NCBI GenBank assembly: GCA_937135955.1
Contig: CAKZOB010000013.1
Location: forward strand, 1 to 42,126
From: an uncultured Anaerolineales bacterium
Lineage (GTDB): Bacteria; Chloroflexota; Anaerolineae; Aggregatilineales; Aggregatilineaceae
Length of the DNA: 42,126 nt
Direction: 5' to 3'
Of this stretch, positions 860 to 6,872 are shown one piece after another (the first letter of the stretch is position 1; each line of letters opens with the position of its first letter). Below the pieces are notes generated by a model, which was given only the letters and a program-made list of their open reading frames with translations, was not told where the DNA came from and searched no databases. A program made the position numbers and the translations under genes.

Positions 860-1855
860 ATGACAACGGTCGTTCGTTGGGGAGTGCTGAGCACGTCGCG
901 TCATGCGGCGAGCACGGTGATTCCGGCCTTGCAGGCAGCGTCAGGCGGGGAGGTGCGAGCGGTCGCCAGCCGCGACGCCTACCGCGCCCGCGCCTATGCC
1001 GAAGAGCACAGTATTCCGCGCAGCTATGGCACTTATGAGGCCCTGCTAGACGATCCGGAGATAGACGCCGTGTATATTCCCCTGCCCAACAGTCTGCACC
1101 GCGAGTGGACGATCCGCGCGGCAGAGGCGGGCAAGCATGTGCTGTGCGAAAAACCGCTGGCGCTCAACGCTGCCGAAGCCCAGGAGATGGTAGATGCCTG
1201 TCGGCGGGCGGGCGTCAAACTAGCCGAAGCCTTCCAGTGGCGACACCATCCGCAGGCGCAGCGCGCGCGCGAACTGCTGCGGCAGGGGACGATCGGCGAC
1301 CTGAAGCTCATTGATGCGGGCTTCACCTTCCCCCTCAGTCGCCCCAACGACATCCGCTTGCGCCCAGAAGTGGGCGGCGGGGCGCTCTACGACGTGGGCT
1401 GCTACCCGATCGCCGTAGCCCGCTACATGGTCGGCGCGGAGCCAGTGGCGGTGACTGCGCAGGCCATCTGGACACCAGAAGGCGTGGACGAGACGCTGGT
1501 AGCGACGCTGACCTTCCCCAACGGTGTGCTGGCGCACATCAACTGTTCGCTACGGTTGCCGCTGCGCCGCTACTACGAGCTGGTGGGCACCAAAGGGATG
1601 TTGCGCGTCAACCGGGCCTACAACCCCAAGGATGATGCGCCCGGCGAAGTGCTCCAACTGAGCGACGACCTGGCGACTGTCGCCACCCACACGACCGAGC
1701 GGCTCAATTCGTATGTGCTGATGGCCGAAGACTTCAACCGGGCTGTCCTGGATGGCACAGATGTGCCCTTCCCGGCTGAAGACGCGGTGCTGAACATGCG
1801 CGTGATAGATGCGGTCTACAAAGCAGCCCGTAGCAACAATGTGGTAGTCGTGTGA
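860..1855 (+). CDS. Gfo/Idh/MocA family NAD(P)-dependent oxidoreductase
   Basis: This 331-residue protein has the usual length of the family. An N-terminal Rossmann fold begins with WGVLSTSRHA (residues 7-16). The family hallmark EKP (residues 97-99, in LCEKPLALNA) supplies the catalytic-site lysine. A C-terminal alpha/beta substrate domain contains the GGGALYDVGCYPI signature typical of sugar and polyol dehydrogenases. It is expected to be cytosolic and to oxidise or reduce a hydroxyl/keto group of a sugar-like substrate; the substrate cannot be read from sequence. The start ATG follows a strong GAGAGAGGAG ribosome-binding site. The gene lies 19 bases before murD, so it may be cotranscribed with the cell-wall genes, but a role in wall synthesis is not demonstrated. 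Confidence 0.88.
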   Translation: MTTVVRWGVLSTSRHAASTVIPALQAASGGEVRAVASRDAYRARAYAEEHSIPRSYGTYEALLDDPEIDAVYIPLPNSLHREWTIRAAEAGKHVLCEKPLALNAAEAQEMVDACRRAGVKLAEAFQWRHHPQAQRARELLRQGTIGDLKLIDAGFTFPLSRPNDIRLRPEVGGGALYDVGCYPIAVARYMVGAEPVAVTAQAIWTPEGVDETLVATLTFPNGVLAHINCSLRLPLRRYYELVGTKGMLRVNRAYNPKDDAPGEVLQLSDDLATVATHTTERLNSYVLMAEDFNRAVLDGTDVPFPAEDAVLNMRVIDAVYKAARSNNVVVV

Positions 1856-1874
1856 GAGTGACGCAACAGGACAT

Positions 1875-3293
<1,419 letters not shown>

Positions 3294-3346
3294 CGGTCAG
3301 CCTTCAGCAACTAGCACGAGCCAGTGCTGGACGGGAGATAGACGCT

Positions 3347-3559
3347 GTGAAATCATCGCAGAGACCGCGCCCCAGGCGGCAGGCAGGTGGGCGTCCACCC
3401 GAAGTAGCCGGACGCGGCGCGCTGGCGGCCATGCTGATCCTGACGGCGGTCGTCGCTGTCTTTGTCCTGGCAGCGGACTTTCTCGGCATGACGGCCCGCT
3501 CGATCATCCTGATCGGCTGGATGATGATCATGCTGGCGGTATTGCGCCGCACCCAGTGA
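3347..3559 (+). CDS. Small two-helix membrane protein between murD and ftsW
   Basis: This predicted 70-residue protein starts at GTG with a GGGAG ribosome-binding site about 10 bases upstream. The first 25 residues are strongly basic and Pro/Gly/Arg-rich (RPRPRRQAGGRP). Two hydrophobic segments follow, at about 27-47 (ALAAMLILTAVVAVFVLAADF) and 50-66 (ARSIILIGWMMIMLAVL), then RRTQ at the C terminus. The basic N terminus suggests an N-in, C-in hairpin. It fits between murD and ftsW without overlapping either gene and shares their strand and composition. I recognise no family. Its place in the cluster suggests an envelope or division accessory role, but that is only an inference from position. 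Confidence 0.6.
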   Translation: MKSSQRPRPRRQAGGRPPEVAGRGALAAMLILTAVVAVFVLAADFLGMTARSIILIGWMMIMLAVLRRTQ

Positions 3560-3637
3560 GCAATCGCTGGCGTGGCGCGTCACCGGGTGATGGGGTAATG
3601 TAAGAAACAGTCCTGTGTGGGGAGCTTCGAGGGTCTC

Positions 3638-4882
3638 ATGGCTGACGCTCCGCAATATATAGACGAAGACACCGAGTTCAATTACGCGGATGCGCTGGTG
3701 CGACCGGCGCGCCGTCCGCCGCCAACTATCGATCGTCAGGAGGCCGCGGCGCGCCGCCGGGCCTACACCCCCGGCTTCGACCTGTACCTGGCGCTGGTGG
3801 TGGCCGCCCTGTGTGCCATCGGCCTGATGATGGTCTACAGCGCGTCTATTGATGTCAGCTATCAGGTCACCGGAGACGCGCGCAGCACCACCTATTTCTT
3901 TGTGCGACAACTGCGCTCGATGATCCTGGGCGTGGCGGTGCTGATACTTTTCTCGCGGCTGGACTATCACCTCTGGCGGCGCCTGGCCGGGCCGATGATG
4001 ATCCTGGTGATCGTACTGCTGATCCTGGTGCTACGCTTCGGCGAGACGCGCTTTCAGGCACAGCGTTCGCTGATCGAAGGGTCGTTTCAGCCGGGCGAGC
4101 TGGCCAAATTCACCGTGGTGCTCTACATGGCGGCCTGGCTGGCAGCCAAGCGCACTCGCATCCGCCGTATCACCTATGGTTTGCTGCCCTTCACCGTGCT
4201 GGTGGGCAGCGTCGCCTTTCTGATCGTGCTACAGCCCGACGTGAGCACTGCGGCCAGCATCCTGGCGACGGCGCTGAGCATGTTTTTCATCGCCGGCGCA
4301 GACATGTTTCAGATGTTACTCATCGGCGGGTTGATGGGAGTGGCCGGCTGGCAATTGCTCACCCGCCTGGATTATGCCCAGAACCGCCTGGCGGTGCACT
4401 GGGCCGCCGTTGAAGACCTGCGTCAGGCCAGCGATCATGTGCAGCAGGCCGTGACCGCCTTCCTCAACGGCGGGCTGACGGGCGTGGGCCTGGGCGAAAG
4501 CCGCCAGAAATTCGCCAACAACCTGCCCTTCCCCCACACCGATAGCATCTTCGCCGTCATCGGCGAGGAACTGGGGCTACTGGGCAGCTTTCTGGTGATC
4601 GCCCTGTTTGTGGCGCTCATCTATCGCGGCTTCACCATCGCCCGCTACGCGCCGGACAGTTTTGGGGGGCTGCTGGCGGCGGGGGTGACCTGCTGGGTGG
4701 CTTATGACGCGCTGCTGAACATTGCCGTGATGACCGCCGTGATCCCGCCCACCGGCGTGCCGCTGCCATTCATCAGCTATGGCGGGTCGAGCCTGGTAGC
4801 GGTGTTGGCTGGGATGGGCGTGGTGCTCAACGTCTCGCGGGCGGTCAGTCGCAGCGCGCTGCCCAAACGCAAGCAGGAGTGA
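3638..4882 (+). CDS. ftsW: Peptidoglycan glycosyltransferase FtsW (SEDS family)
   Basis: FtsW is the SEDS-family glycan polymerase of the division septum and works with a cognate class B penicillin-binding protein. The product from ATG 3638 is 414 residues; a GTG at 3617 in the same frame is also open, but GAGG lies six bases before the ATG. The first 50 residues are cytoplasmic and charged, followed by about ten hydrophobic helices. SEDS signatures are QPDVSTAASI, GESRQKFANNLPFPHTDSIF, AVIGEELGLLG and the C-terminal PTGVPLPFISYGGSS. RodA has similar motifs; the murD-murG neighbourhood favours FtsW. The partner PBP is not in the window. Confidence 0.93.
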   Translation: MADAPQYIDEDTEFNYADALVRPARRPPPTIDRQEAAARRRAYTPGFDLYLALVVAALCAIGLMMVYSASIDVSYQVTGDARSTTYFFVRQLRSMILGVAVLILFSRLDYHLWRRLAGPMMILVIVLLILVLRFGETRFQAQRSLIEGSFQPGELAKFTVVLYMAAWLAAKRTRIRRITYGLLPFTVLVGSVAFLIVLQPDVSTAASILATALSMFFIAGADMFQMLLIGGLMGVAGWQLLTRLDYAQNRLAVHWAAVEDLRQASDHVQQAVTAFLNGGLTGVGLGESRQKFANNLPFPHTDSIFAVIGEELGLLGSFLVIALFVALIYRGFTIARYAPDSFGGLLAAGVTCWVAYDALLNIAVMTAVIPPTGVPLPFISYGGSSLVAVLAGMGVVLNVSRAVSRSALPKRKQE

Positions 4883-4910
4883 ACACAGCATAAATCTCAC
4901 AGGCCAGCTT

Positions 4911-5645
4911 ATGAAGATACTTTTTCTTGACGAATCTGGCGATCACCACTTGGCCAAAATCGATCCTCAATATCCGATTTTCGTGCTGGGAGGGATAATT
5001 GTTGAGCAAGCTTATGCAGAGGGCGAACTCACTTGCCAATTGAATGACTTCAAGCGCGCTCTCTTTGGCACAGAGAACATCATCCTGCACACTGCCGACA
5101 TCACGCGCAATCGGAATGGATTTGAACGACTACAAGATACAGCATTTCGCCAGCACTTCTACCGAGAACTGAACGCCCTGATGGCGACACTGGATTACAC
5201 AGTAGTTGCATGCGCGATTCATAAGAGAGGACACCTTGCCAGGTATGGTGTTGCTGCACTTGATCCTTATATGTTAAGCCTGGATATACTGGTAGAGCGC
5301 TTTTGCTTTGAAGTCGGTGGAATCAGTAAGGGGGGAATGATCGTTGCTGAGCAGCGCGATCCAACACTGGATCAGGCACTGAAACTGGCATGGTCGAACC
5401 TCAAATTTCAAGGTACCCGATACTTGCAGGGGAAAGTCATCGCCGATCGAATTTGCGACATCGTGCTACACCCTAAGAAACAGAACATTGCAGGCCTGCA
5501 ACTAGCGGATCTTGTGTTGTCACCAATAGGGAGACACGTGCTTGGCAAACAGGACAGAGGGGACTGGCAAATCGTCGAAAGGAAACTGAGACGAGGACCG
5601 ACAGGTCAGGTTGAAGGTTTTGGGTTGGTGATTCTACCAAAATAG
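4911..5645 (+). CDS. DUF3800 domain protein, probable foreign insertion
   Basis: This 244-residue protein has DUF3800 hallmarks: the N-terminal FLDESGDHHL, a central HTADITRNR segment, AEQRDPTLDQAL, and the C-terminal LQLADLVLSPIGRH (the family's Q-x-A-D motif). DUF3800 proteins are thought to have an RNase H-like fold with acidic active-site residues; their biological role is unsettled and they often occur in mobile or accessory DNA. The gene differs from its neighbours: bases 4921-4980 contain 25 G/C of 60, whereas 6061-6120 in murG contain 43 of 60. It has no good ribosome-binding site and splits ftsW from murG. The 8-base word AGGCCAGC occurs just before the start (4901-4908) and just after the stop (5649-5656). 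No transposase is present. Confidence 0.82.
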   Translation: MKILFLDESGDHHLAKIDPQYPIFVLGGIIVEQAYAEGELTCQLNDFKRALFGTENIILHTADITRNRNGFERLQDTAFRQHFYRELNALMATLDYTVVACAIHKRGHLARYGVAALDPYMLSLDILVERFCFEVGGISKGGMIVAEQRDPTLDQALKLAWSNLKFQGTRYLQGKVIADRICDIVLHPKKQNIAGLQLADLVLSPIGRHVLGKQDRGDWQIVERKLRRGPTGQVEGFGLVILPK

Positions 5646-5765
5646 AAGAGGCCAGCCCCCGCTACGCAGTGACCAGCCTGCTTCTAAATTTATATTAATG
5701 CAGATAGAGTCCATCTGTCAAGCAGTTGCCAGGACAAATCGTACGCAAGCTCAAGGAGTACACTC
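5646..5765. other. AT-rich spacer between DUF3800 gene and murG
   Basis: This 120-base gap is clearly richer in A/T than the surrounding cell-wall genes, for example TTCTAAATTTATATTAATG at 5683-5701. It carries the right-hand copy of the AGGCCAGC word and ends with the AAGGAG ribosome-binding site of murG (5753-5758). I see no gene, RNA or convincing promoter pair, although TATATT or TATTAA near 5690 could serve as a weak -10 for murG. Confidence 0.45.
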
Positions 5766-6872
5766 TTGCGCATCATGATCTCAGCCGGAGGGACGGGGGG
5801 CGGTGTGTATCCCGCGCTGGCCGTGGCCGGAGCGCTCCGCCGCCTCTATGACGACCTGTCCCTGACCTTTGTGGGCGCGCGCGGCGACATGGCCCGCGAC
5901 CTGGTGCGCCGCGCCGACGTGCGCTTCGATAGCTATCACGAAGTGCTGGCCGGGCCGATGCATGGCGTCCCGCGAATGCAGCAACTGACGAGCGCGCTCA
6001 AAATCGCCGTGGGTATCGTACAGTCGCTGGCGTTAGTGCTGCGCCTGCGACCTCAGGTGCTCTTTCTGACGGGCGGTTGGGTGGGCTTCCCCACGGCGGT
6101 GGCGTGCTGGCTGCTGCGCCGCCCCCTTGTGATCTACGTGCCAGACATCGAGCCGGGCCTGACCCTCAAGCTGCTGGGACGCTACTTCGCCCGCGCCATT
6201 GCCGCCACCGTCGCCGAAACCAGCGCCTTCTACCCCGGCAAGCGCGTGGTGGAGACGGGCTATCCCCTGCGCCCGGAGATTCTGCGGGCGCGGCGCGAGG
6301 AGAGTATCCAGGCGCTCGGTCTCGACCCACAGCGGCAAACCTTGCTGGTGTTCGGCGGCAGCCGGGGATCGCGCAGCATCAACACGGCCATGGCGCGCAT
6401 TGCCCCCGCTCTACTGGACGATGGTGGGCAGATCGTGCATATCACCGGTCAGCTCGATTGGGAGAGCGTACGGGCACAGCACGCCGCGCTCACCGAAGCT
6501 CAGCAGGCGCGCTACCAGATACACGCTTTTTTGCCGGACATCGGTCAGGCGTTCGCTGCCGCCGATCTGGTAGTCAGCCGGGCGGGCGCGGCCACACTTG
6601 CCGAGTACCCACAGCATGAATTGCCCGCCATCCTGGTGCCCTACCCCTATGCCTGGCGCTATCAGAAAGTCAACGCCGACTGGCTGGTGACGCGCGGCGC
6701 GGCGGTGCAGGTAGACGACGGACGGCTGGGCGAGGAACTGCTGCCGACCATTCGCGCGCTGTTCGGTCAGCCGGAGCGACTACAGGCAATGCGAGCCGCC
6801 ATGGCCGCGCTCAAGCGACCGGATGGTGCAGAGAACATCGCGCGTCTGCTGGCGGAGACTGCCACCCGCTGA
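5766..6872 (+). CDS. murG: UDP-GlcNAc:lipid I N-acetylglucosaminyltransferase MurG (altered motif)
   Basis: MurG transfers GlcNAc to lipid I on the inner face of the membrane, making lipid II. The TTG start at 5766 is seven bases after AAGGAG; ATG 5775 is in frame but less well placed. The 368 residues show the GT28 layout: the GGTGG loop at residues 8-12, VLFLTGGWVGFPTAV, LVFGGSRGSRSINTAM starting the C-terminal domain, and SRAGAATLAEYPQHELPAILVPYPYAW with NADWL. Two conserved positions differ from the textbook enzyme. The GGTGGH loop reads GGTGGG (the His is Gly13), and the usual HQ before the NA motif reads YQ. Gene order (ftsW side, murC/murB downstream) strongly supports MurG all the same. 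Confidence 0.9.
   Translation: MRIMISAGGTGGGVYPALAVAGALRRLYDDLSLTFVGARGDMARDLVRRADVRFDSYHEVLAGPMHGVPRMQQLTSALKIAVGIVQSLALVLRLRPQVLFLTGGWVGFPTAVACWLLRRPLVIYVPDIEPGLTLKLLGRYFARAIAATVAETSAFYPGKRVVETGYPLRPEILRARREESIQALGLDPQRQTLLVFGGSRGSRSINTAMARIAPALLDDGGQIVHITGQLDWESVRAQHAALTEAQQARYQIHAFLPDIGQAFAAADLVVSRAGAATLAEYPQHELPAILVPYPYAWRYQKVNADWLVTRGAAVQVDDGRLGEELLPTIRALFGQPERLQAMRAAMAALKRPDGAENIARLLAETATR

Follow-up and report, generated by a model that had tools for sequence, protein, structure and literature searches.

A DUF3800 gene and a convergent structured small RNA occupy the gap between ftsW and murG in an Anaerolineales bacterium

The window analysed here, the whole 42,126-nucleotide stretch of contig CAKZOB010000013.1 from an uncultured Anaerolineales bacterium (genome G000), holds a DUF3800 protein gene between the essential genes ftsW and murG, and a small RNA gene that converges on the DUF3800 stop codon (Table 1). 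An earlier, sequence-only reading had placed a DUF3800 open reading frame between FtsW and MurG, and Pfam matches bear out the gene and both of its flanks; the DUF3800 profile (PF12686) is covered over positions 1-149 of 149 at 61.7 bits, against a gathering cut-off of 21. The gene is indeed poor in GC (48.7%, GC3 49%) relative to ftsW, murG, murC and murD (GC 64-67%, GC3 77-82%), although the values of 42% and 72% first quoted came from 60-base samples.

Table 1. Coordinates of the features in and around the ftsW–murG gap of the window.
Feature	Position	Strand	Remarks
ftsW	3656..4882	+	left flank; PF01098 E 2.5e-82; ATG at 3656, longest mechanical ORF from 3617
AGGCCAGC, upstream copy	4901..4908	+	judged a chance word
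DUF3800 protein gene	4911..5645	+	encodes 244 aa; putative nuclease, fold predicted as RNase H of the RNase HII kind; PF12686 E 1.6e-16
convergent small RNA gene, type A	5644..5686 (approximate ends)	-	hairpin; covariation and minus-strand fold
AGGCCAGC, downstream copy	5649..5656	+	complementary to the stem's 3' arm
sigma70-like promoter of the small RNA	5721..5692	-	TTGACA-18-TAATAT; loci-wide enrichment
murG	5766..6872	+	right flank; PF04101 E 1.5e-30, PF03033 E 2.3e-15

The closest relative, Anaerolineales bacterium UBA2029 (G002, locus L059), carries a DUF3800 gene at the identical place. The sequence-only reading had named relatives with the gene at this place and matching divergence as counter-evidence; G002 is such a case and speaks against the 8-base word (see below) as an insertion scar, with DUF3800 and MurG each 90% identical in protein sequence to those of the window. 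Between the two genomes the DUF3800 gene has a dN/dS of 0.19 and is thus under purifying selection. Its dS is 0.27, compared with 0.71 for murG, which could mean that synonymous sites change more slowly in a gene of low GC, or that the two lineages exchanged it later. As a side observation, about 135 extra bases that resemble a dispersed repeat lie between the RNA gene and murG in G002 (L059 4800-4960).

Outside the genus we read 25 loci and found both genes in 23 of them, L026 and L031 yielding no pair. The two genes overlap in 17 of these 23 junctions and are 1-74 bp apart in the other 6, as the earlier claim that ftsW and murG are usually adjacent would have it. At L016, L018, L019 and L025 the FtsW match stops ~330 bp short of murG, with the frame open into murG.

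Inside the genus, a plain ftsW–murG junction was absent from all five genomes examined. Both G000 and G002 carry DUF3800 plus the RNA. In G001 the cargo is a UvrD helicase whose best PADLOC match is GajB (E 3.8e-54), followed by the last ~15 codons of DUF3800 and an RNA with its TTGACA box. G003 has a decayed DUF3800 gene of another subfamily (PF12686 E 3.1e-8) and, by eye, a convergent TATGAT box with a terminator hairpin. In G004 a type II restriction enzyme comes right after ftsW (PADLOC E 5.8e-22), and on a second contig, unjoined to the first, a type II methyltransferase stands just before murG (PADLOC E 4.1e-30). The first 200 residues of MurG are 93-94% identical among G001, G003 and G004, and three different cargoes beside nearly identical MurG proteins point to fast cargo turnover. 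The DUF3800 tail in G001 suggests that the unit was present before the two subgroups of the genus split, repeated insertion being another possibility. The ftsW–murG gap in this genus is a defence hotspot. No integrase or transposase was found among the ORFs listed or scanned at the genus junctions, and we infer that cargoes most simply came in by exchange across the conserved genes on either side.

At unrelated loci, DUF3800 genes stand next to type III (L069) or type IIG (L062) restriction-modification genes, where the DUF3800 start overlaps the end of the upstream gene, or next to a UvrD helicase (L060). PADLOC assigned 0 families to the DUF3800 proteins of the window, L060 and L069. These neighbours, and a protein clade that mixes phyla, uphold the earlier view that a defence-linked gene of foreign origin sits in an essential locus, with no visible transposase. 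The description as a single cargo gene falls short, for the cargo also includes a convergent RNA gene of its own.

Two further differences between the window and G002 lie in the same cell-wall cluster. A second defence-like insertion (L075 1691-3440) precedes murC in G002, encoding an AAA_21 ATPase and a DUF4276-like protein that match PADLOC HEC-01A and HEC-01B; the window has no counterpart between 7544 and 7606. Upstream of ftsW, positions 1801-3600 of the window do not align with L075 (~35-52% identity per 150 bases), so that gene order before ftsW also differs within the genus.

The sequence-only reading had taken the 8-base word AGGCCAGC, which does flank the gene exactly where claimed, for the scar of an insertion. 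This view did not survive. The window contains nine copies of the word, compared with an average of 3.3 in shuffles, none of which reached 9. In G002 the counterpart of the upstream copy reads gggcaagc and that of the downstream copy AGGCCGGC, and hence the upstream word is not kept in the closest relative. The expected empty site bearing one copy was not seen either: none of the 23 uninterrupted junctions outside the genus has AGGCCAGC within 100 bp, and just 6 of them have intergenic bases at all. Finally, the downstream copy complements 8 of the 9 bases in the 3' arm of a covarying hairpin that we found in several phyla; lying within an RNA stem, the word is part of the DUF3800–RNA unit and not of the target. 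Insertion of a single cargo gene with an 8-base target-site duplication, for which the presence of the word on both sides of the gene in the source genome would speak, is thereby ruled out for practical purposes, its probability being close to nil.

The hairpin came to light as a palindromic stretch near the stop codon when the 3' flanks of relatives in other phyla were compared. Its stem, in the RNA that we call type A, comprises 9 bp (5671-5679 paired with 5649-5657) and closes a near-invariant 13-nt apex, ACTGCGTAGCGGG (5658-5670); the T-rich 3' end of the RNA runs into the DUF3800 stop codon. The apex starts 2-13 bases past the stop in 13 of the 15 clade-A loci. At L093 it starts 45 bases after the stop, and at L066 the open frame passes through the hairpin, with the apex inside the frame. 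In the window the type A unit amounts to a protein of 244 aa plus an RNA of about 45 nt.

We aligned the stems of 19 type A RNAs, 18 of them distinct. On the antisense strand 96.3% of the stem cells are paired, with double-sided changes in 8 of the 9 pairs, and the covariation score of 0.944 (0.41 when shuffled) was equalled by none of 500 shuffles. Read on the sense strand, 77.8% of cells are paired, and the 30 cells that are lost are exactly the wobble cells, G-U in the antisense and A-C in the sense reading. Since the wobble pairs fit the antisense strand alone, selection has acted on an antisense RNA. Folding energies are -23.5 kcal/mol (z -3.34) for the minus strand and -11.4 kcal/mol (z -1.05) for the plus strand. 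The minus-strand fold adds a CUGC/GCGG pairing within the apex, closed by an A-G mismatch that is reversed to G-A at L071; this inner helix is a predicted pairing, and its positions hardly vary. Its covarying structure and its place next to a DUF3800 gene put type A among the DUF3800-associated small RNAs. We also considered a programmable guide RNA, and found no support for it, as no variable segment is visible by eye between promoter and hairpin.

A convergent promoter is a recurrent feature of DUF3800 loci. We surveyed 53 loci, after excluding 7 of 60 because their genes were broken, partial or duplicate. A promoter matching 10 of 12 positions, the strength of the one in the window, or more lies antisense at 25 of the 53 loci and sense at 0, with 0.7 expected from shuffles. 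At a cut of 9 of 12 the numbers are 35 antisense and 6 sense, with 4.35 expected. Downstream of 41 control genes the cut of 10 of 12 gave 0 antisense and 3 sense promoters, and the cut of 9 of 12 gave 5 and 11, so that the laxer cut shows a smaller contrast; the control stretches have a GC of 57%, compared with 50% at the loci, which lowers promoter matches there, whereas the shuffles of the loci keep composition. At 18 of the 53 loci, 5 of which are among the 15 clade-A loci, promoter matches stay below 9 of 12.

The kind of RNA follows the protein tree. In the full-length set, all 15 intact clade-A DUF3800 proteins have a type A RNA. Their labels of origin are Chloroflexota, Myxococcota, Pseudomonadota, Verrucomicrobiota, Campylobacterota, Bacteroidota and Omnitrophota; these are mostly metagenome bins, so single labels may be wrong, and one row is from an unlabelled phylum. 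The RNA–gene pair is present in at least six named phyla. Type A (15 rows) and type B (19 rows) each correspond to one protein clade with 100% bootstrap. Type B, found with relatives of 26-34% identity in Anaerolineae, is likewise convergent and ~75 nt long (TAATCC-hairpin-GGAGGTGGAT-hairpin-terminator), and one such stretch had only sub-threshold Rfam matches, to unrelated families. A third kind, C, occurs on alphaproteobacterial and Paraburkholderia plasmids, and its label needs 3 changes on the tree. The regular expressions behind the labels (A, B, B2, C) were written after the sequences had been inspected. Nine tree rows are labelled none; four of them (L108, L113, L114 and L115) fall within clade C and resemble variants by eye, and at L096 and L106 no RNA was found.

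Rfam already contains structured RNAs that lie by DUF3800 genes, namely DUF3800-III (RF02962), -VI (RF02915), -VII (RF02967), -IX (RF02968) and -I (RF02969). Forms III, VII and IX have several stems, whereas type A consists of one hairpin, whose apex is near-invariant. These motifs reportedly stem from the work of Weinberg et al. 2017. None of the Rfam DUF3800 families reached its gathering score in the window or at 52 loci of this and the nearest clades, where tRNAs were the sole matches, and 221 bases around the hairpin (5560-5780) had no Rfam match at E up to 10. Types A, B and C are thus outside every Rfam family at its gathering score, although they share their arrangement with known RNAs. 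At 20 more distant PF12686 loci, Rfam DUF3800 families match 9. Forms III, VII and IX lie convergently downstream of the gene at 7 of 7 matched loci, and at 2 of 2 loci form VI precedes the gene as a tandem pair, read in the direction of the gene. A strict automatic rule demanding promoter plus terminator found an RNA gene at 4 of 21 distant PF12686 loci, and the comparison with Rfam (9 of 20) shows the rule to be too strict; at the remaining distant loci neither the rule nor Rfam established an RNA. The tandem VI copies, at L140 1171-1279 and L152 1802-1911, stand directly upstream of DUF3800 genes and resemble abiF motifs.

The DUF3800-I model matched 0 of 151 Chloroflexota genomes, but the controls likewise had no match, so that the count carries no information. 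The RNA model R1 matched 15 of 301 Chloroflexota genomes at E up to 0.01; 5 of these score above 40 bits and were accepted, the 10 at 22-28 bits were put down to chance, and at the 10 low-scoring loci tblastn with 8 queries found no DUF3800. G633, which has the variant type A RNA of L093 and may lie outside the genomes sampled, is absent from the R1 matches. Within the family R1 matches 3 of 18 genomes, G000, G001 and G002. On contig 20 of the source genome (L076 5400-5580), a stretch running from TATAAT to a terminator faces, by eye, the 3' end of a second DUF3800 gene; the gene is unrelated, and the stretch has a different sequence and no Rfam match.

That DUF3800 genes pair with structured RNAs is known from Rfam and from PMC10910872. 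Relative to Rfam 15 and the literature searched, the new elements are RNA types A, B and C, the convergent layout from promoter to stop codon with evidence for its strand, and the match between RNA type and protein clade. The ftsW–murG defence hotspot is new with respect to a narrower literature search.

Some type A RNAs persist without an intact gene (L073, L091, L071, L095 and L123). DUF3800 remnants lie beside the RNA at L091 and L071, and in G600 the gene is split over two frames with the RNA present. At L070 we found a broken DUF3800 gene and no RNA; among the 15 intact clade-A genes none was found without its RNA. This pattern fits an antitoxin or a required cofactor. However, mutations will hit the gene far more often than the much smaller RNA, and neutral decay would likewise tend to remove the gene first; that no intact gene lacked its RNA is just as compatible with an RNA that activates. 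Two of these copies deserve separate mention. In Sulfuricurvum (G331) a second type A copy with only the C-terminal end of DUF3800 left sits on a separate contig (L091 1490-1650), and in G431 a type A RNA of 40.8 bits (L123 ~1501-1538) has a TATACT box upstream, with no DUF3800 gene found in the 2,046 bases around it.

The exact 13-mer apex was present in 13 of 17 genomes, once in each apart from one genome with two copies, and a reversed control pattern gave 1 match across the 17; most of these genomes were chosen as DUF3800 carriers, so that the counts show just the absence of further copies. We reject a dispersed hairpin of the REP/RAYT or IS200 kind in view of this near-single-copy state in the genomes searched. 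The search for a phage or virus origin revealed no relative among viral contigs, and DUF3800 relatives below 60% identity were in 2 phage records and 46 plasmid records.

For the protein, a search of solved structures by sequence gave no match (best E 0.82), and we turned to an AlphaFold2 model made from 12 sequences (pLDDT 83, pTM 0.86). The best structural match of this predicted model is RNase HII (1eke; Z 10.7, rmsd 3.5, 167 aligned residues), and the top 18 match rows are all RNase H2/H3 chains with Z 8.0-10.7, a fold missing from such lists not being thereby excluded. Foldseek gave a best E of 6.3e-3 and hence no match at a cut of 0.001. Among the acidic residues, D7, E8, D63, E129, E147, D154 and D200 are invariant. 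The protein starts LFLDESG, and the RNase HII proteins of these genomes have DEAG near their start, an acidic D-E-x-G motif common to both. In contrast, profile comparison by hhalign gave RNase HII a probability of 1%, and the RNase HII profile PF01351 had no match at E up to 0.1. The predicted model thus shares the fold of RNase HII, whereas the sequence profiles keep the two families apart; the source genome has a separate RNase HII of its own. An RNase H fold for DUF3800 has already been reported in PMC10910872. We infer that the protein is a putative nuclease from the predicted fold together with the conserved acidic residues.

The arrangement invites comparison with known RNA-controlled systems. 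In type III toxin–antitoxin systems a repeat RNA precedes the toxin gene and is read in the same direction, and ToxN has a fold of its own, unlike that predicted for DUF3800. ToxIN pairs an endoribonuclease toxin with an antitoxin RNA made of multiple repeats. The likeness lies in a protein restrained by a structured RNA, as we propose for DUF3800, and the layout differs, the type A RNA being downstream, on the opposite strand, in single copy and free of repeats. A second parallel is AbiF. According to PMC12373285, the abiF motif RNA (RF03085) of C. difficile neutralises the AbiF toxin by direct binding, and two abiF motifs sit upstream of abiF. In both cases a defence-type protein has a dedicated small RNA with its own promoter and terminator, restraint being a proposal for DUF3800. 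AbiF is of a different protein family, linked to Cas13 ancestors, with its RNA upstream on the same strand; the DUF3800 unit has a convergent RNA downstream and a protein fold predicted to be RNase HII-like. The DUF3800 accessories of Cas12a2 (V-A2) and VI-F systems belong to the same Pfam family and have an RNase H fold, as PMC10910872 and PMC12669027 describe them, and sometimes come with a UvrD helicase, as G001 and L060 do here. No CRISPR array or Cas gene came to notice at the present locus, and in contrast to the crRNA of those systems, the partner here is a fixed RNA.

Computation shows the pairing of gene and RNA and its recurrence in several phyla, covariation in the stem, which strand encodes the RNA, the match of type to clade and the residence in the hotspot. 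The mechanism that we consider most likely, and favour only tentatively, is that the RNA acts as an antitoxin restraining a DUF3800 nuclease. Matched clades of RNA and protein, the near-invariant apex, the tandem DUF3800-VI copies and the defence neighbours lead us to prefer it. The unit would have two parts, a protein of RNase HII-like fold and a convergent structured RNA ending at the gene's end. The small RNA would be transcribed constitutively from its own promoter, bind the DUF3800 protein through the conserved apex and hold in check a nuclease that may be toxic or anti-phage. Infection or stress would lower the amount of RNA and free the nuclease, giving abortive defence. Addiction would explain how the unit persists in an essential operon. 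It would spread as gene plus RNA, by recombination in flanking core genes or together with other defence cassettes, with no transposase of its own.

Next in order comes the possibility that the RNA is not an inhibitor but an activating or structural cofactor of a ribonucleoprotein nuclease. This we regard as unlikely, though a serious contender. The RNA kept by 15 of 15 intact clade-A genes would suit a cofactor, as would the correspondence of RNA types with protein clades and the accessory role of DUF3800 in class 2 CRISPR systems, V-A2 and VI-F in PMC12669027 and Cas12a2 in PMC10910872. However, the conserved part is near-invariant and has no variable guide segment, the upstream DUF3800-VI tandem copies look like antitoxin RNAs, and RNAs without an intact gene occur. 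It is improbable, and ranks third, that the RNA merely regulates DUF3800 expression, as a cis-antisense transcript or a bidirectional terminator without contact between RNA and protein. Given where it lies, the RNA would pair with the 3' end of the DUF3800 mRNA, and at many loci it ends, by eye, in a terminator-like hairpin and T-run at the stop codon. Yet neither a plain antisense RNA nor a terminator needs a 13-nt apex that is near-invariant across phyla or a stem that covaries on the antisense strand only, and the type of RNA tracks the clade of the protein. Finally, the hairpin might act as DNA, for example as the end of a mobile element that the RNase H-fold protein recognises in single-stranded form, in a unit that transposes itself. 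A lone gene plus hairpin does occur at unrelated sites in several phyla, and retroviral integrases, among the lower-ranked structure matches, share the RNase H fold. But dispersed solo copies of the 13-mer are lacking in the genomes searched, no conserved partner element is seen by eye at the 5' end, the wobble asymmetry indicates RNA, and the best fold match is RNase HII and not an integrase. We consider a DNA element very improbable.

DUF3800 is a widespread family, known so far from nearby Rfam RNA motifs and an occasional role as a CRISPR accessory. The clade-by-clade match to convergent RNA genes turns it into a concrete unit with a protein, an RNA, a promoter and a candidate binding apex, which would explain why the genes travel alone, persist in essential operons and gather in defence islands. 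It is conceivable, if on balance doubtful, that DUF3800 genes overall supply the protein for a large and so far undescribed class of defence or addiction units under RNA control, in which an RNase HII-fold nuclease would be held by a convergent RNA at its 3' end and each clade would have its own RNA fold. If so, type A would be the smallest version of such units, and CRISPR systems would have taken up some DUF3800 proteins as accessories, a counterpart to the link between AbiF and Cas13. The ftsW–murG gap in turn offers a clean natural example of a defence hotspot among division and cell-wall genes, where no integrase was seen. Within Anaerolineae, DUF3800 matches were present in 43 of 120 genomes.
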